From assembly GCA_949290865.1 (NCBI GenBank), contig CASETM010000023.1, forward strand, positions 18,300 to 82,299: a stretch of DNA of 64,000 bases, in the 5' to 3' direction. The position numbers were made by a program, and so were the translations under genes. Shown piece by piece: positions 26,690-34,423 of the stretch (position 1 is its first letter; the number at the start of each line of letters is the position of its first letter). Origin of the DNA: an uncultured Bacillota bacterium (lineage in GTDB: Bacteria; Bacillota_I; Bacilli_A; Erysipelotrichales; Coprobacillaceae). The notes under the pieces are model-generated. The model was not told the DNA's origin, did no database searches, and saw nothing but the letters and a program-made list of their open reading frames with translations.

Positions 26690-26718
26690 AATATTTAATC
26701 TTTGAAAGATTAAATATT
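26690..26718 (-). terminator. Native terminator of ftsW
   Basis: AATATTTAATCTTT / AAAGATTAAATATT stem and a T8 tract that overlap the TAA ending the 3' ftsW fragment. It marks the natural end of the host gene, outside the inserted element. Confidence 0.85.
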
Positions 26719-26819
26719 ATGCTGATTTTGAAATATTTAAAATGATACCAATTTCAATAAAAGTCATGATGATTGATGTTCCTCCATAAGACATCAAGGG
26801 TAAAGTCACACCTGTAACA
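26717..26819 (-). pseudogene. ftsW: 3' fragment of the interrupted ftsW/spoVE-type gene
   Basis: The minus strand reads VTGVTLPLMSYGGTSIIMTF and on through IEIGIILNISKSA to TAA. This is the conserved last region of SEDS glycosyltransferases, which reads PVTGVTLPFxSYGGSS in typical FtsW/SpoVE, and the final membrane helix. The rest of the gene lies 6.6 kb away at 33442-34423. Joining at the shared TGTTACAGGTG gives GLFPVTG|VTLPLMSYGG in frame. As arranged, this fragment has no start and cannot be expressed on its own. Confidence 0.93.
26809..26819. repeat. Left attachment-site core (attL) of the ftsW element
   Basis: CACCTGTAACA, identical to the copy at 33442-33452. On the minus strand it is TGTTACAGGTG, within codons for VTG of FtsW. 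It is the only sequence shared exactly by the two junctions. Confidence 0.85.
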
Positions 26820-26838
26820 TTTCCATTGCGATGATTAT

Positions 26839-28419
26839 TTATTCAGTTAAATAGTTTGAAAAGTCAACCTTAAAATAAATATCTACAGTTTTGTTTTCAC
26901 TTATGTCTATTCTATCAATAACCTGATATAAAAATTCATGTGTTATATATTGAGATTTTAGAAATTCTCTAAGTCGCTGTTGATATTTTTTTTGTACACA
27001 ATCATTAGTTTTCATGACAATTGCTTTTTTTAAACCTTTTATCTCTTTTAATAATATTTTGATATCATTATCATATTTTGATGCCAGCAATTGGTATTGC
27101 TGCAACGAAATGATATCATTAAGTCTATCTTCATACAGTTTTAAAATGAGATTATTTTTTTTATTATATTCCTTTTTCAACTCCTTAATTTTATCCTGAT
27201 TTTTTTTCAGATTCTGATCATTAAATCTGAAAAAAGATGCCATTAACTTATCAACAGTTCTATCTTCTGTCATCTTTTCACCAATTTTTAAAAAAAAATC
27301 TCTCATATCCTGTTCAAGCTGATCATAATTAAAATGATGGGCTGTACATAATTTATATTTGCTATATTTCTGGTAATAATTACAATGTCCATAGTGAGAC
27401 GTCTTAGTTTTATATTTTTTTTCACTAATAGAGATTGCATGACCACATTCTTTACAGAATAATAATCCCTGTAATAAATATTTTTTATCTTTTTTTGCGG
27501 AGTATTTTTTTGTTTTCTTTAATGCTATTTGTACTTTGTCAAACAATTCCTGACTGATTAATGGCTGATGTGTATTTTTCACTATGATCCATTGATCTTC
27601 AGGCAATTCTACCAGTTTTTTTGAATGATAACTCAATTTTTTCCATCTTCCTTGAACCATATGTCCTAAATAAATCTGATCAGTTAAGATGCTTTTCACT
27701 GTTTGAGCACGCCATATTCCTCGTCCTTGATTTTCATTCTTCAATAAAACATGAGATCGATTTTCATTTTTATAGACAGAAGGGATTGGATATCCACATG
27801 ATGTTAATTTCTGAGCGATTTTCCCTGTTCCCAACCCTACACTAGCCCATTCAAACATCTGGATGATATGAGAAGAAACCATAGGATCAGGGATAAGCTG
27901 TTTTGGATTTTGAGGATTTTTCATATATCCATATTTCGCAAAAGAACCAATATAATCCCCTTTTTTTCTTTTTGCATCCAAACTGCTCCGTATTTTCTTT
28001 GAAGTGTCTCTCAAATATAAATCATTAACACTTAAGCGTATTCCCAACATCGCGTCACCAACATTCGAATCATAACCATCATTTACTGCAATAAAACGAA
28101 CTTGTCTGGCCAAAAAATAATCTTCAATATATGTTCCTGTTTTATACAATTCACGCCCTAAGCGAGATAAATCCTTAACAATAACGCAATCAATATATCC
28201 TTTTTCAATATCATTAATAAGATCCTCAAACCCTGGTCGATTAAAATTTGACCCTGTATACCCATCATCACAATAATGCCTGATTATCTTCATTTGATGA
28301 AAAGAAGCAAAAGATTCAATGATCATTTTCTGACTTTCGATAGAGGAACTTTCATCATTCCGATTATCTTCTTTTGATAATCTTTCATACGCTCCAACAC
28401 GATATTCAGATTTCATCAT
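26839..28419 (-). CDS. Large serine recombinase (SpoIVCA/TnpX type)
   Basis: About 526 aa. N-terminal resolvase domain with the nucleophile in YERLSKED and the conserved VKDLSRLGRELYKTGTYIE; recombinase domain (IWRAQTVKSILTDQIYLGHM); zinc ribbon (LLFCKECGHAIS ... CNYY ... LCTAHH); then a long Lys-rich coiled coil, as in large serine integrases. These enzymes cut attP/attB sites with a 2-bp stagger and integrate or excise without host factors. It ends 20 nt from the attL core, the usual place for the integrase. The start is taken at the ATGATG near 28419, 14 nt inside the upstream small ORF; GTG at 28431 is an alternative. Confidence 0.93.
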   Translation of the reverse strand: MMKSEYRVGAYERLSKEDNRNDESSSIESQKMIIESFASFHQMKIIRHYCDDGYTGSNFNRPGFEDLINDIEKGYIDCVIVKDLSRLGRELYKTGTYIEDYFLARQVRFIAVNDGYDSNVGDAMLGIRLSVNDLYLRDTSKKIRSSLDAKRKKGDYIGSFAKYGYMKNPQNPKQLIPDPMVSSHIIQMFEWASVGLGTGKIAQKLTSCGYPIPSVYKNENRSHVLLKNENQGRGIWRAQTVKSILTDQIYLGHMVQGRWKKLSYHSKKLVELPEDQWIIVKNTHQPLISQELFDKVQIALKKTKKYSAKKDKKYLLQGLLFCKECGHAISISEKKYKTKTSHYGHCNYYQKYSKYKLCTAHHFNYDQLEQDMRDFFLKIGEKMTEDRTVDKLMASFFRFNDQNLKKNQDKIKELKKEYNKKNNLILKLYEDRLNDIISLQQYQLLASKYDNDIKILLKEIKGLKKAIVMKTNDCVQKKYQQRLREFLKSQYITHEFLYQVIDRIDISENKTVDIYFKVDFSNYLTE

Positions 28420-28534
28420 AGTCACTCTCACTCATGTTTTTTAGATATCTAATAAAATGCATTTTTAATATTTCTTCAAAACTATCTTTTGTATTCACAA
28501 AATGATAATTATAATTTAAAAAATTTTTTTTCAT
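28406..28534 (-). CDS. 42-aa ORF translationally coupled to the recombinase
   Basis: ATG at 28534 follows a strong GGGAGG at 7 nt and opens MKKNFLNYNYHFVNTKDSFE and on to SESDYDEI, stop at 28406. The product is a small, charged, probably helical protein without known domain. It overlaps the recombinase start by 14 nt, so recombinase translation probably depends on it. Its position suggests a regulator or recombination directionality factor, but no sequence match supports this. Confidence 0.6.
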   Translation of the reverse strand: MKKNFLNYNYHFVNTKDSFEEILKMHFIRYLKNMSESDYDEI

Positions 28535-28621
28535 TCTTTGCCTCCCTTATTTTTAGCTTATTAATCACTCTAAAAAAAAGAACAAATTAGCTATCAAAAC
28601 ATTCAATTCTATAATTACTCA

Positions 28622-28639
28622 TATGTCGCATCAGACATA
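28622..28639. promoter_or_regulatory. Inverted repeat between recombinase and AraC genes
   Basis: TATGTC and GACATA with a six-base spacer, in the 222-nt divergent intergenic region. Possible operator for either gene; nothing more is visible in 28535-28756 beyond AT-rich promoter-like sequence. Confidence 0.35.
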
Positions 28640-28756
28640 ACCATTTTTTCATTAAAGATTATTTAGCCATTTGTTATCTGATATTGAAAAGTATAAAATA
28701 TTTTTTTATAATAAAACAAAGTTGTTTATCTAAAAAATGAAAAAGAGGAAAAAATA

Positions 28757-29590
28757 ATGTTTAGGTACGAAAAAATCAGGCATGACGACAACTTACCAAT
28801 AAAACTCCACGACTTTTTCTTTGACAACTATCCAAGCAAAGGAATAAGCAAGCATTGGCATCGTAGTCTAGAAATACTGGTGCCATTATATGGTCATATT
28901 GATTTGTGGATCAATGGAGAAATAAAAACTACACATGCTGGAAAAATATATATAATCAATTCCGAAGAAATTCACGAAATCATCCCTCACTACACAGAAA
29001 AATACTATAAAGGATATGCTTTACAAATTGATTTCGATTATCTTAAACTTTGCTGTCCAGATATTGATAAAAAATATTTCAGACAACCCGACGCACTAAA
29101 TAATCAACTCATTTTAGGAAAAGTATTAGACATCATCCGTTACTATGACAACCCAAATAAATATAATCATATCCGTATCATCAGTCATTTGCAAATGTTA
29201 ATATTTTTATTATTAAACCATCTAAGCTACAATAAAGATAATTCATTAGAATTAAAAACAAATAAAAACAAAGAAAGAATCATCAAAATACTTCATTATA
29301 TCGACGAAAATTATGCTGAAAATTTATCAGGGTCACGAATCAGCAAAACTTTCTATCTTTCCGAAGGTTATCTGTATAAGTTATTTAAAGAAAACCTAAA
29401 TATCACCTTAAAACAATATATTAATATTGTACGCATAAACCATGCAAAAGAAGATCTGGTAAATACCGCTTACCCAATAATTGATATTGCTATTGATAAT
29501 GGTTTCGCAAATGTCAAATCGTTTAATCATATTTTTAAAGAACAAATAGGTTTAACTCCTAAACAATACCGTGAAAAAATGAAAAAATAA
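28757..29590 (+). CDS. AraC-family regulator
   Basis: A 277-aa regulator with an N-terminal cupin-type sensor domain (KHWHRSLEILVPLYGHIDLW, residues 30-110) and a C-terminal double helix-turn-helix (about 170-275: IHYIDENYAENLSGSRISKT-like first HTH, and IDIAIDNGFANVKSFNHIFK second HTH, ending GLTPKQYREKMKK). Typically activates sugar or polymer-use genes on binding a ligand. Only other cargo of the element is the large esterase, so it is the likely target. RBS AGAGGAAAA is adequate. Strong A+T bias. Confidence 0.92.
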   Translation: MFRYEKIRHDDNLPIKLHDFFFDNYPSKGISKHWHRSLEILVPLYGHIDLWINGEIKTTHAGKIYIINSEEIHEIIPHYTEKYYKGYALQIDFDYLKLCCPDIDKKYFRQPDALNNQLILGKVLDIIRYYDNPNKYNHIRIISHLQMLIFLLLNHLSYNKDNSLELKTNKNKERIIKILHYIDENYAENLSGSRISKTFYLSEGYLYKLFKENLNITLKQYINIVRINHAKEDLVNTAYPIIDIAIDNGFANVKSFNHIFKEQIGLTPKQYREKMKK

Positions 29591-30017
29591 ATATTAAATT
29601 TCCTGTTCTTAAATTAAACACTAAAATTAGAATCTATTATTGCTCACTAAAAATATTCACAAGTCTCCTCGATTATAAATTTATATTCGAAAAATAATAT
29701 ACTATAAATCATAAATTCGAATAACTTTCTTAATATTTCTAATTTACATATATCATTCTAAAAAATAAAATATAAAAAAGAGCTATAACAAAATAAAGTA
29801 ATTACAACTTTTTCAAATACAAAAAGGCAAGCAGAACTCATCACATTCAGGCCTGTCTTTTTTGTATAAACAGGTTATGAAATCCACTGTAATTAAATAA
29901 CCTAATTACACAAAAAAGTGTTATTCATCTCAACTTATTTTACCATTGGATTTTTTATTATTTATAGATTAAAATATAATTCAGTATTTTCCTGCATAAT
30001 AAAAAAAAGGAGAGCAA
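29591..30017. other. Noncoding AT-rich stretch after the AraC gene
   Basis: About 430 nt. Near 29822-29868 a weak hairpin (AAAAAGGCA pairing with TGTCTTTTT) is followed by T on the plus strand and may end the AraC transcript. Otherwise I see no gene or RNA here. Confidence 0.4.
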
Positions 30018-30400
30018 CATTAAAGAACGTCATCCATATAATTTCAAAATCGTGTACAAAATCGTTGCCTTTTCATATATGAATATGAACTTCTCATTAA
30101 GAACTATGACCAATGCCTATAAAAATAATATCCGCTATCAGGTCCTATCCGCTAATCCAACTCGATTGTATAAAACTTTTTGTACATCCATGAAATATAG
30201 AATCAGAGATAATATTTCCATGCTTTTTAGCATATATTTGAAGTGCTCAAAAAAGAACTAGATTCAGATACTTCAATAGCCTTTGTTAAGGAAGCAAAAT
30301 TCAGACCATTGTCAATAGATATACTATCGCATGTCACAAAGCTGTATGCAAACATCTGGATAAACTACATAATAAAATTAACAGATTGCTTTGACTCATG
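30018..30400 (+). pseudogene. IS1182-type transposase relic
   Basis: The plus strand reads ERHPYNFKIVYKIVAFSYMN, then FSLRTMTNAYKNNIRYQVLS ... YKTFCTSMKYRIRDNI. This resembles the N-terminal half of IS1182-family transposases (YM...FSLR..E.ACRNDIR... ATF.RFI). Pieces continue in two further frames (KKELDSDTSIAFV, HKAVCKHLDKLHNKINRLL). The usual start ATG is absent, frameshifts are present, and the catalytic C-terminal half is missing. Confidence 0.55.
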
Positions 30401-30444
30401 ATACTGTCGTATATAACTTAAGCAGGCTGGTTATCTTTTTCATA

Positions 30445-30471
30445 AAAAAAGAAGAAGAGACTGTCTCTTCA
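30445..30471 (-). terminator. Terminator of the esterase gene
   Basis: GAAGAGAC / GTCTCTTC around one central base, with T7 on the minus strand, about 60 nt below the esterase stop codon. Confidence 0.85.
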
Positions 30472-30529
30472 AAAATAGAAATTAATCTTTTTCGTTACAG
30501 TCTCTTATATGTATTAAGTACGTTTTAAA

Positions 30530-33253
30530 TTAATAGTATCTTCTCTTCACTGCTGTGAAAGTAGTTGCAGATAATACCATCATAATTCCTAATCCTAACC
30601 ACGCAGTATCATCACCAGTTTTTACAGATGTTACAGGTTTAGAAGGATTTTGAGTTGCTGAATTATTATCTGAAGCAGTATCATTAGCAGTTTTTACTTG
30701 CTTAGCCAACCATTCCCAAGCATTTAATTGTCCATCATAACATTCATTGTTATCAAAATAGATCCATGACCAATGTCCATTATATTGATATGGTTCTCCA
30801 TTAGAAGTAAATCTACCAGTTGTATCATGTACATCTTCAAATGCTGAAACATGGACATTTTTTGCTCCTGCAGCTAATAGACGTTTTACAGTTGGTTCAA
30901 CACATAATGTTGGATCGACTGTTCCATCATTTTTAGCATACGTGAACCAGATTGGTAAATCTTTAATAGATTCAATCTGTTCATCAGTAATATACTGATC
31001 CTGATAAGCTTCGCAAATCGGGAAGGCTGCTGCAAAATAATCTGGATATGTCAGAATCATTTCCATTGTCATATATCCACCGTTTGAACATCCACCAATG
31101 ATCACTCTATTTGGATCAATATCAGGATTATTCTTTACATAAGCATCAATCATTTCCATTAAACTTTCTGTATAGCATGAACCTTTGTCACCATTTTGAT
31201 AAGCTCCAGTTCCATCATCCATCCACATAGTTGGTGCTTGTGGAACCAATACATATGCGTCATCAAACAATTTCTGGAAATCATTGCTTACCAAAGCAGT
31301 TACTTCATTTCCTAACAGATCAATATATGAGTCATTTTCTCCTTTGTTAGTACCTTCACCAGCACCATGTAACCAGATAACCAAAGCATGTTTATCATTA
31401 TCTTTTGCAGGTCTATAATCCGCATAATTATAAAGCGTTCCATCTTTTGCAGTATAAGTCTGATTAATATCAAAGATGCCATCTACCTGTGGAACAATTT
31501 TTTCATCACCAGCAACGTCAATAGTTTCTTTAATATTGACACTTGTTATCTGCTGTCCTTCAGAAGTAACAACTGCATTATCTGCTAAACTGATATACAG
31601 TTTATAAGGATCGCACCAACTGTTAAATCCAGTGCTTAAACTGTAAATGAATGGTGATCCCGTATTTGGATCAACTTCCATTTCAATAGTTACATATTTT
31701 GATGAAGTAGTGACTTCATTACCATTTTCATCAGAAGCATAAATATTTGTCACAGTACGTGCAGCTTTTGCTAATCCAACTGCACCAGTGTTCCAGTCAA
31801 CTGTGGCTTCTTTTTCTTCTACAACAGTGAAATCATTAGCATCCAATGAAGCAGCATCAATTAGTTTATCCATAGAAATAATTGTCTTTGAAACTGCTGG
31901 TCCCCAGTCATCACCAATAATATAGGCTTTTTGTGTACCAGAAACAACATTATTATCTAATCTCGTCTGTACAGACATCCATTGCCATAAGTTTGCTCCA
32001 TTGGTATCAACACATTGATCATTATAGAAATATGTCCATGACCAGTGTCCATCATAAGTATATGGTTTACCAGTATCTACTGTAGTCAACTGATTATTAT
32101 CATCTAAGAAAAATCTTCCTGTTGTATCATGAACATCACTGAAATATGATTCATGAACTTCTGCTCCAGCTTCTTTCAATCTTTGTGCCAATGGTTTACT
32201 TGTTTTTAATGGATCACAAGTTGTATCATTTTCTGAATGAATAAACCAGATTGGTACATTTTTAATTGATTCAATCATTTCATCACTAACACTGGCACTT
32301 TGTGTTGCTGGACAGATTGGATATGCTGCAGCATAAAGTTCTGGATGCTGGAACAGCATTGTCATTGTCATTGCTCCACCAGCTGAACATCCCCCAACAA
32401 TCACTTTATTTGAATCAATATCAGGATTTTCTTTTAATATTTTTAAAATCAGCTGATAAATCGTTTCAGCACTTGCTTCTGAAGAAACTCCTGACCTTCT
32501 TTGTGGAACCAGTACATAAGCACCACTCATTGCTTCTTGAAAATCAGTATCAACTAATGCAGTTACTTTATTTCCTAATAAATCAATTTGAACATCAGTT
32601 CCAGTTTCTCCAATACCATGATTCCAAATAACTAAAGCATTTGTTTTATCATCTTTTTCTGGAGAATACAGTGCATATGAAACAGCTGCACTATCATATG
32701 TAAATTCACCTTTAACAAATCCATCCAGCTGTGGACAGATTTTTCCATCACCGGCAACATCAATAACCGATTCAACATCTAACTGTGTAATATCATTACC
32801 TTCAGATGTCAATGTTGCTCCATTAACAAGACTTACATCTAATTCATAAGGGTTAGCCCAATTATTAACCCATTTAGCTCCATCCCAAACAATTGGATTA
32901 CCTTCAACAGGAGAAATTGTCATTTCAATTGTTACATATTGAGAATTTTCTTTTATTTCATTCCCATTTTCATCAGATACATAAGCATCAATTATGTTTC
33001 TATCACTTGAATTTTTGTTGTCTAATGTTTGAACAACCTTAAAATCAGTTTTATCAACCGAATCAGCATCGATAACCTGATCAAGATTTAAAATTGTTTT
33101 AGAAACACCTGGCCCCCAGTCATCACCAACTACATATGCTTTCTGCGTCCCAGTTGCTGTGATTCCAGCAGCATATGCAGGCGTAACAGTTAGTCCAAAA
33201 ACCATCATTGCGCTTACAAACGTACTTAATACTTTTCGCGTTTTCATAACCAC
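30530..33253 (-). CDS. Cell-wall-anchored protein with two esterase domains
   Basis: A 907-aa exported protein. Signal peptide 1-29 (ending TPAYAAG). Two tandem homologous units, about 30-430 and 439-850, each with an N-terminal beta domain (GDDWGPGVSKTILNLDQ / GDDWGPAVSKTIISMDK) and an alpha/beta-hydrolase domain. Each has its own triad: Ser290 (GGCSAGG), Asp343, His375 and Ser723 (GGCSNGG), Asp776, His809. The C-terminus (SVKTGDDTAWLG, helix, KRRYY) resembles a sortase signal with a non-canonical motif. The fold is that of PHB-depolymerase/feruloyl-esterase-like enzymes, so de-esterification of plant or mucin polysaccharides is plausible but the substrate is unknown. GTG at 33253 fits GGAGG better than the ATG two codons on. 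Confidence 0.85.
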   Translation of the reverse strand: MVMKTRKVLSTFVSAMMVFGLTVTPAYAAGITATGTQKAYVVGDDWGPGVSKTILNLDQVIDADSVDKTDFKVVQTLDNKNSSDRNIIDAYVSDENGNEIKENSQYVTIEMTISPVEGNPIVWDGAKWVNNWANPYELDVSLVNGATLTSEGNDITQLDVESVIDVAGDGKICPQLDGFVKGEFTYDSAAVSYALYSPEKDDKTNALVIWNHGIGETGTDVQIDLLGNKVTALVDTDFQEAMSGAYVLVPQRRSGVSSEASAETIYQLILKILKENPDIDSNKVIVGGCSAGGAMTMTMLFQHPELYAAAYPICPATQSASVSDEMIESIKNVPIWFIHSENDTTCDPLKTSKPLAQRLKEAGAEVHESYFSDVHDTTGRFFLDDNNQLTTVDTGKPYTYDGHWSWTYFYNDQCVDTNGANLWQWMSVQTRLDNNVVSGTQKAYIIGDDWGPAVSKTIISMDKLIDAASLDANDFTVVEEKEATVDWNTGAVGLAKAARTVTNIYASDENGNEVTTSSKYVTIEMEVDPNTGSPFIYSLSTGFNSWCDPYKLYISLADNAVVTSEGQQITSVNIKETIDVAGDEKIVPQVDGIFDINQTYTAKDGTLYNYADYRPAKDNDKHALVIWLHGAGEGTNKGENDSYIDLLGNEVTALVSNDFQKLFDDAYVLVPQAPTMWMDDGTGAYQNGDKGSCYTESLMEMIDAYVKNNPDIDPNRVIIGGCSNGGYMTMEMILTYPDYFAAAFPICEAYQDQYITDEQIESIKDLPIWFTYAKNDGTVDPTLCVEPTVKRLLAAGAKNVHVSAFEDVHDTTGRFTSNGEPYQYNGHWSWIYFDNNECYDGQLNAWEWLAKQVKTANDTASDNNSATQNPSKPVTSVKTGDDTAWLGLGIMMVLSATTFTAVKRRYY

Positions 33254-33296
33254 TTGTTTTTGCCTCCTTTTTTATATTCTATAAAAATTATAATAA

Positions 33297-33310
33297 GTAA
33301 AGCGCTTTCA
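33297..33310 (-). promoter_or_regulatory. CcpA cre site upstream of the esterase gene
   Basis: TGAAAGCGCTTTAC on the minus strand, a near-perfect catabolite responsive element, 44-57 nt upstream of the start codon. Predicts repression by preferred sugars. Confidence 0.7.
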
Positions 33311-33313
33311 TGC

Positions 33314-33382
33314 GTGCTATTTACTCATGAAAAAAGGGCAATTTTCTCATCTTTTCACATTTTTATGTGCTATTTCCCCATG
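33314..33382. promoter_or_regulatory. Two 16-bp direct repeats, candidate AraC-type sites
   Basis: GTGCTATTTACTCATG (33314-33329) and GTGCTATTTCCCCATG (33367-33382) match at 14 of 16 positions and lie 53 bp apart, five helical turns. They sit just upstream of the cre site and esterase promoter, where an AraC activator would bind. Confidence 0.55.
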
Positions 33383-33406
33383 TGTGTGTATCTTTAATAA
33401 GCATTA

Positions 33407-34423
33407 TTAATTTATTTTACGTATTCGCATCATCATCGTTTCACCTGTAACAGGAAACAAACCCACTACGACCCCCAAATTAATCAAGGTTTGAATACCG
33501 ATTACAGAAACAATGCCAATGATCATAAAACTCCCAAAAATATCATCGATTTTTTTTGATAGATTTAAACAGTGAATAAACAATGATGCATATAAAAGAA
33601 TTAATAAAACTCCTCCTATCAGACCAAATTCTTCCAGATAAATCGCAAAAATAAAATCTGTCTGCGGTTCTGGCAAGTAAAAGTGTTTTTGAATACTGTT
33701 ATCAAAACCCACACCCAATAATCCCCCTGGAGCAATCGCATACAATGACTGGATCATCTGAAATCCCGAACCTAAAGGATCCTGAAAAGGATCAAGAAAT
33801 GCAAGAATCCTTTTCATACGATAGCTTGCTGTCAGAATCATCATCACAATTCCACCGATTCCAATACCTCCTAAAATCATAAAATAGCGAAATGGAAAAG
33901 GTGTCACAATTATCATCACAACAACGGCACAACACATAACAACACCGCTGCCAAAATCAGGCTGCAACATGATCATGATAAATCCTAAAAGTGTTACCAG
34001 CAATGGTTTGATACAGCTTTTTAGCTTTTTCATCTGATGATAATGATGACTTATATAGTCGCTGACATAAATAATCAAAGCAATCTTAAAAATTTCTGAT
34101 GGCTGTAAAGCGAACAGCCCCAGATTGAACCAGCTTCGTGATCCTCCTCTAACTACTCCTATTCCTGGAATCAGTACCAGAATCATTAGAAAAAAAGAAA
34201 AAAGCAGAATCTTAACACAATGTCTTTGATAAAGATGATAATCGATCTTCGCAAAAACTGCCATGCACAGAAGACCGATAGTCACAAAAATCATCTGTCG
34301 TTTAATAAAATAATAACTGTCATCAAATCTATACTGGGCCCAGATATGTGAAGCACTATAAACCATCATCAGACCTATGCCAGTTATCGATAAAACCATG
34401 AATAATATTCTCTTATTTTTCAT
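33407..34423 (-). pseudogene. ftsW: 5' portion of interrupted ftsW/spoVE-type SEDS glycosyltransferase
   Basis: Encodes the first nine or so helices of a lipid II polymerase: KNKRILFMVLSITGIGLMMV, the GSRSWFNLGLFALQPSE loop, QPDFGSG, and LPEPQTDFIFAIYLEEFG, up to GLFPVTG. The family then needs VTLPxxSYGG and a last helix; here 10-11 foreign residues (ETMMMRIRKIN) and TAA follow inside the element. The start is ATG at 34423 behind GAGGGTGAT. Without excision the product lacks the last helix and the conserved SYGG loop and is probably inactive. It could be FtsW proper or the sporulation paralogue SpoVE, which occupies this dcw position in B. subtilis. Confidence 0.93.
33442..33452. repeat. Right attachment-site core (attR) of the ftsW element
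   Basis: CACCTGTAACA, identical to 26809-26819. It lies at the exact point where the FtsW reading frame leaves its family consensus. Confidence 0.85.

Follow-up and report, generated by a model that had tools for sequence, protein, structure and literature searches.

The window analysed here is a 64,000-nucleotide stretch of contig CASETM010000023.1, from the genome (G000) of a gut bacterium, an uncultured member of the Bacillota in the family Coprobacillaceae. In it, an insert of 6,633 bp between two copies of CACCTGTAACA interrupts a SEDS gene on the minus strand, most likely spoVE. We consider it likely that the insert is an element lodged in the glycine codon of the PVTG motif of this gene, that it is cut out by its own recombinase and that the gene is thereby restored in sporulation. 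Such a reading, modelled on the skin element, had been put forward in a preliminary description of the sequence, and was strengthened by intact genes at the same locus within the genus, by the symmetry of the attP sites of nine elements and by the presence, in 18 further species, of recombinases of the same clade at the same spot.

A SEDS gene is split at the PVTG motif

The SEDS open reading frame (ORF) starts at 34423 and stays in frame to GLFPVTG at 33442-33452, after which it continues for a few codons inside the insert to a stop at 33407. The absent end, VTLPLMSYGG...SKSA followed by a stop, was found 6.6 kb away at 26717-26811, so that both pieces of the split frame reported in the preliminary description could be located. 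The repeat shared by the two junctions was likewise recovered, with copies at 26809-26819 and 33442-33452 and no third copy in the window; the count expected by chance is 0.00, and none of 100 shuffles contained two copies. Joining the flanks at the repeat reproduced the unbroken frame, with 357 codons when counted from MKNK and 366 when counted from an ATG further upstream; it contains PVTGVTLPLMSYGG. Left unjoined, the truncated protein is without its last 30 residues, where the SYGG stretch falls in the FtsW alignment. The features of the split gene are as follows.

33445..34423, minus strand: 5′ part of the interrupted SEDS gene, likely spoVE; codons 1-327, ending with the first G of the glycine codon in PVTG; PF01098 positions 3-326 of 356
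26717..26811, minus strand: 3′ part of the interrupted gene, beginning with the second G of the glycine codon and ending at the stop; PF01098 positions 322-354, 35.6 bits
33442..33452, minus strand: junction at the 5′ part, repeat copy; putative crossover GG at 33444-33445
26809..26819, minus strand: junction at the 3′ part, repeat copy; putative crossover GG at 26811-26812

It is scarcely credible that the split arose from faulty assembly or from a chimeric bin. The host genome is a draft assembly (107 contigs), and in several relatives the 5′ and 3′ parts fall on separate contigs, as such an error might produce, but both junctions lie within one 82-kb contig and the cluster of the split protein (P0001) occurs on 5 contigs. 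Moreover, the two parts share a contig in G039, G277, G704, G940, G854 and G792, and also in G042, albeit on opposite strands. A chance repeat or artefact was rejected on the strength of the shuffles, the five-contig protein cluster and these single-contig genomes.

The gene is intact in related genomes

The preliminary description had proposed that related strains be compared for empty sites. In the five same-genus genomes other than the host the gene is intact (5/5, 74-83% identity) and PVTG is uninterrupted. The locus is the same: in the two genomes examined for neighbours (G016 and G013) the gene lies between a GGDEF-containing response regulator and an AlaX-like gene, as in the window. 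For the host species itself an intact gene was not found, the nearest protein cluster being 91% identical. For the split proteins of Thomasclavelia spiroformis (T. spiroformis) type there is an intact protein (P0020) that shares 95.4% identity with them across the 5′ part. The 120 protein clusters that best match the joined protein comprise 91 intact ones and 29 that stop just past P[VI]TG; the latter collapse to 6 groups at 95% identity, one of which, of T. spiroformis type, takes 24. Three genomes whose genes are partial, owing to a contig edge or to a break around residue 95 (G008, G282 and G001), were excluded from the count of split genes. The spoVE-like gene of G001 (L032, 2388-3451) is whole at PVTG but interrupted around residue 90-95, where some 14 bases separate the two pieces of the frame, reflecting either a frameshift or an assembly error.

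One recombinase clade recurs at the same spot in two orders

A large serine recombinase had been reported 20 nt from the end of the insert, and its stop, at 26839, indeed lies 20 bp from the repeat.

26839..28431, minus strand: large serine recombinase, 530 amino acids from the first GTG, with likely ATG starts just inside; PF00239, PF07508, PF13408

The protein carries Resolvase, Recombinase and zinc-ribbon domains; no other protein of the host genome matches PF07508. Residues S19, which we take from the family motif to be the catalytic serine, R90 and R93 are invariant in 12 relatives. Its earlier designation as SpoIVCA type holds in the wide sense of a large serine recombinase, but not in a narrower one; the closest solved structure by sequence is that of TnpX, from a Tn4451-type mobilizable element (2mhc, residues 13-123, E 8.3e-30), in a match that spans the N-terminal domain only.

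The order of the host was represented by 315 genomes, 68 of which have the gene (E <= 1e-60); nine of the 68 are split at the PVTG motif (G000, G002, G004, G039, G041, G042, G243, G254 and G277, with PITG in G277). Recombinases at least 51% identical were found in precisely these nine genomes, all others being at most 36% identical, with up to four candidates scored per genome. A second order of the same class (385 genomes) yielded ten full-length recombinases that share at least 49% identity with the G467 protein, every one of which ends at a spoVE 3′ part, and one more that is partial at a contig end. In eight of these ten genomes the 5′ part is seen as well, along with two further SEDS genes; G971 has two others and G836 one.

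Taking both orders, a spoVE part adjoins the recombinase in 19/19 cases (the 3′ part in 17, the 5′ part in two), as opposed to 0/33 other recombinase loci searched over flanks of up to 1.5 kb. The 19 recombinases form one clade in a tree with the 33 others and L119 (support 100/100, 0/500 shuffles as low). L119 (G739, 288 amino acids) falls inside the clade; its contig ends in the recombinase, and it was therefore counted neither with the 19 nor with the 33. The joined frame is open in all 16 genomes with single-piece 5′ and 3′ parts (nine in one set and seven in another), a test in which G437, G836 and G971 were not joined. Within what was searched, this recombinase clade occurs only at the spoVE spot.

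Several loci depart from the common arrangement. In G254 and G277 (L088 and L087) the recombinase is turned towards the spoVE 5′ part, unlike in the other seventeen, the module being reversed in the element. In G042 (L027, L056, L058; C1:861820-909975) the 5′ part is on the minus strand and the 3′ part and recombinase are on the plus strand of a single contig, 47 kb apart and pointing apart. If this arrangement is real, recombination would invert 48 kb instead of excising it and spoVE would still be restored; a misassembly is possible. The 5′ part of G437 (C14:16412-21050, L156) is itself in two pieces on one contig (profile positions 5-232 and 228-326), 3.6 kb apart, which points to a second insertion in the same gene. 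Across the second order, whose genomes measure 0.7-1.9 Mb, a large serine recombinase was detected in 176/385 (E <= 1e-80 to the G467 protein).

Attachment sites are symmetrical about the glycine codon

For the nine elements of the first order, attP was rebuilt from the element side of each junction (20 + 20 bp). With the GG of the glycine codon as axis, the two halves agree as mirror images at 85/126 tested positions, compared with 36.9 ± 5.0 when shuffled and 22-44 when the axis was shifted by 1-4 bases. In the window element the halves have mirrored outer ends, TCGCA and TGCGA.

26812..26831, minus strand: reconstructed attP half, 20 bp, TCGCA...ACAG
33425..33444, minus strand: reconstructed attP half, 20 bp, GTGAAAC...TGCGA

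The bases shared by the two junctions amount to GG alone in G254 and to 7-11 uninterrupted bases about the axis in the other eight. Serine integrases make a two-base crossover between half-sites. Since GG is the symmetry axis of the attP halves in nine elements, the GG/CC dinucleotide within the repeat, at 26811-26812 and 33444-33445, is the better candidate for the crossover.

A constant recombination module with interchangeable cargo

The remaining features of the insert are a small ORF and two cargo genes.

28406..28534, minus strand: small ORF, 42 amino acids, overlapping the recombinase start; candidate directionality factor; a seed of the hidden Markov model (HMM) and so matched by construction
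28757..29590, plus strand: AraC-family regulator (cargo), from the ORF list and a domain match
30530..33253, minus strand: exported two-domain esterase (cargo); EstA_Ig_like, Abhydrolase_2 twice

Such a small ORF accompanies all of the spoVE-site recombinases (19/19), lying directly upstream in 16 and separated by one gene in G002, G004 and G254. Twelve of the 19 were seeds of the HMM, and among the seven non-seeds the match in G836 is weak (E 0.0087). The small protein may serve as a directionality factor for the recombinase. The idea that it is unique to the spoVE-site clade was rejected, given that weak relatives precede a few other recombinases.

The cargo differs between elements: the AraC-family regulator and the esterase in the window, one oxidoreductase in the 3.1-kb element of G277, a capsule or exopolysaccharide cluster in the 35-kb element of G039 and conjugation genes on the G002 contig. 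The recombination module is thus constant and its cargo interchangeable. A prophage was also considered and rejected. No phage-type protein is found among the large ORFs of the window element (recombinase, AraC-family regulator, esterase), and collections of phages, plasmids and viruses gave distant recombinases only: 508 phage records match the recombinase, all at less than 60% identity (27.9-39.0% for eight among the matches listed), and viral contigs gave one match, at 29% identity.

Two further observations were made. A related gene with AAA-ATPase_like and PDDEXK_9 domains lies by the junction or the recombinase in five of the nine elements (G002, G004, G039, G041 and G042). Exported proteins (30530-33253 in the window, 10460-13930 in L031 and 2391-4187 in L027) end in VKTGD, a hydrophobic segment and a basic tail; this ending resembles a sorting signal of this family, distinct from LPXTG.

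The split gene is most likely spoVE

The host genome has three SEDS genes. A search for further copies, suggested in the preliminary description, found that both an FtsW-like and a RodA-like gene are present beside the split one; these match the NCBIfam ftsW and rodA models best, the latter narrowly. For the split gene the spoVE model (TIGR02615) scores best, at 364.9 bits for the 5′ part. Moreover, the third SEDS gene follows Spo0A across 43 family genomes, with both present in 30, neither in 10 and 3 discordant (Fisher p 3.6e-7); in this tally the Spo0A match in G008 is partial, and G015, among the three discordant genomes, is 72% complete. Family genomes without the third SEDS gene carry two. 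Spo0A was found in the host genome and in 6/6 split family genomes.

In B. subtilis, spoVE sits between mur-type genes. The same is seen in G042, where a Mur-ligase gene precedes the third SEDS gene and a MurG-type glycosyltransferase follows; the latter also follows in G277. In G000 and G016 the gene adjoins genes other than mur genes. Two studies of B. subtilis report sigma-E-dependent transcription of spoVE in the mother cell and a requirement for the gene in making the cortex (PMC3533761, PMC517825). The split gene is most likely spoVE, a name drawn from profiles, co-occurrence and gene neighbourhood. Of the two options left by the preliminary description, spoVE or ftsW, the data favour the former, although NCBIfam cut-offs alone would say FtsW, and some source records annotate the split genes as truncated FtsW.

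Selection on the split gene and movement of the element

Two outcomes had been named beforehand as incompatible with a skin-like element, namely the lack of any excised junction together with a second intact ftsW and a copy decaying in relatives, and relatives lacking the repeat at an empty site. Where testable, neither was found: PVTG is uninterrupted in relatives and the split 3′ ends are free of stops. All 19 of the 3′ parts are open and keep SYGG, and the ratio of non-synonymous to synonymous change (pN/pS) is 0.24 (12 overlapping pairs). Simple decay of the 3′ ends was rejected on the open frames and the SYGG motif, with the proviso that selection may predate insertion.

The recombinases of G002 and G004 are 98.5% identical, although 41% of synonymous sites differ between the spoVE 3′ parts of these genomes. 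For this pair the recombinase cannot therefore have been inherited vertically along with the gene, and the element moved recently and horizontally. A quick tree also grouped the G041 recombinase with this pair; a fuller tree leaves the grouping open. The contig with the G002 5′ part also encodes conjugation proteins (relaxase, coupling protein, VirB4-like ATPase) 17-37 kb from the junction, with the far end of the element on another contig.

These signs of transfer would suit a selfish integrative element that struck a conserved codon, killed a dispensable gene and excises only for its own transfer, in hosts that are losing sporulation or do without it. We regard this as unlikely. It sits poorly with 3′ parts that are open and keep the motif in 19/19 cases, with Spo0A in each of the six split family genomes and with the occurrence of the split form on 144 contigs of a single cluster of T. 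spiroformis, a spore-forming species.

A proposed route to excision, and the case against it

Integration at the glycine codon would split spoVE, and the shortened protein, without its SYGG segment, is presumably inactive. In growing cells this truncated protein would be harmless, because FtsW and RodA serve growth. The small protein would then switch the recombinase from integration to excision, acting on attL x attR, and recombination at the GG dinucleotide would release a circle and rejoin the 357-codon spoVE in the sporulating mother cell. The element would be lost from the mother cell only and kept by the spore, and its loss would cost nothing, because the mother cell, where SpoVE is needed for the cortex, dies and the spore keeps a copy. 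Excision and its timing in the mother cell are suggested by analogy with CD1234 and CD1231 of C. difficile.

Several results weigh against this account. Neither a rejoined chromosome nor a circle was seen in a split strain, and a search of the viral_contigs collection gave no exact match to attP of either the window element or the G002/G004 element. A scan for sigma-E and sigma-K motifs upstream of the 19 small ORFs gave no excess (1, 0 and 0 of 19). The attP symmetry of the window element by itself is not significant (6/14, p 0.11). TnpX excises without a partner. Weak relatives of the small ORF precede 3/19 other recombinases scanned (L127, L089 and L105), besides L119, as is nonetheless expected if the small protein is a recombinase partner. 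As for the gene, the TIGR02615 cut-off of 448.8 bits is reached neither by the split gene nor by intact orthologues (410.5 and 397.2 bits), and the split gene passes the NCBIfam ftsW cut-off (339.1 vs 337.5 bits). Much of the selection seen in the 3′ parts may have acted before the insertions. Lastly, the evidence for sporulation in the host consists of the Spo0A match, the search having covered this one spore gene, in the first order, and a literature search for a sporulation phenotype of the host found nothing.

Some of these points, namely the ftsW model scoring above its own cut-off and the lack of a sporulation promoter motif, would fit a reversible switch in growing cells, whereby a subpopulation excises the element and the third SEDS protein is used in growth or stress and not in spores. 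Moreover, yin of C. botulinum is excised in part of the culture at every time point, as stated in the accessible text of PMC10747680. Such a switch strikes us as improbable all the same: two other SEDS genes are present, and of the 12 family genomes without a Spo0A match 10 lack the third and so do without it in growth. Restoration of spoVE in sporulation thus stays our preferred explanation.

Comparison with known intervening elements

Among the closest parallels is skin in sigK, where a large serine recombinase (SpoIVCA in B. subtilis, CD1231 in C. difficile) lies by a split mother-cell gene that is exactly rejoined, as would be the case here. The target of skin is a sigma factor, whereas the window element is in the gene of a SEDS cell-wall polymerase, has no phage-type large ORF and is only predicted to be excised. 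The protein CD1234 of the C. difficile element (72 amino acids, under sigma-E and SpoIIID) directs excision by CD1231, as given in the accessible part of PMC5025042, and is a possible parallel to the small ORF of the window.

Further sporulation genes are interrupted by elements that bring a recombination unit of their own: SPbeta in spsM, vfbin in spoVFB, vrin in spoVR, a prophage in kamA and yin in yabG (PMC4191935, PMC6957869, PMC10747680). As far as the available portions of these papers go, those are prophages or carry phage-related genes, whereas the spoVE elements share one clade and one spot with unrelated cargo. A further case is gin in gerE of B. cereus ATCC10987, which, according to the portion available of PMC5595907, has no phage genes and a recombinase, GirC, that works with a further factor, GirX; it differs in its size (28.6 kb), its three recombinases and its gene.

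Beyond sporulation, TnpX uses many target sites. The second-best NCBIfam match of the recombinase is XisF of the cyanobacterial fdxN element (95.5 bits, below the cut-off of 375). The fdxN rearrangement is developmental and takes place in a terminal cell, as is proposed here; it differs in gene, phylum and recombinase subfamily.

The preliminary description knew of no element at this site, and our literature search on such elements, with subscription papers and bioRxiv outside its scope, likewise found none in spoVE; the available text of the intervening-element papers PMC4191935, PMC6957869, PMC10747680 and PMC5595907 contains 0 mentions of spoVE. The presumed mode of action is of a known kind and the target gene is new; new as well is one recombinase clade faithful to one spot across orders, with exchangeable cargo.

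Implications

Earlier sporulation elements look like scattered accidents, each in one species and mostly involving one prophage. The spoVE elements come from 19 species of two orders, with one clade at one gene spot, sizes from about 3 to 35 kb and changing cargo. They offer a natural series in which to test whether mobile DNA is domesticated by sporulation, how a module is retained amid cargo turnover and whether a conjugative element may become tied to development. Their att sites may be usable as orthogonal sites for anaerobe genetics. We give an even chance to the broader view that a single clade of serine-recombinase modules, in two orders of Bacilli, is tied to one spoVE codon and switches on the cortex polymerase by eliminating its cargo from the mother cell, so that sporulation keeps the module and the cargo gains a protected germ-line place. 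The SEDS peptidoglycan polymerase of the cortex would then be a new control point of sporulation, probably at the sigma-E stage, before sigK.

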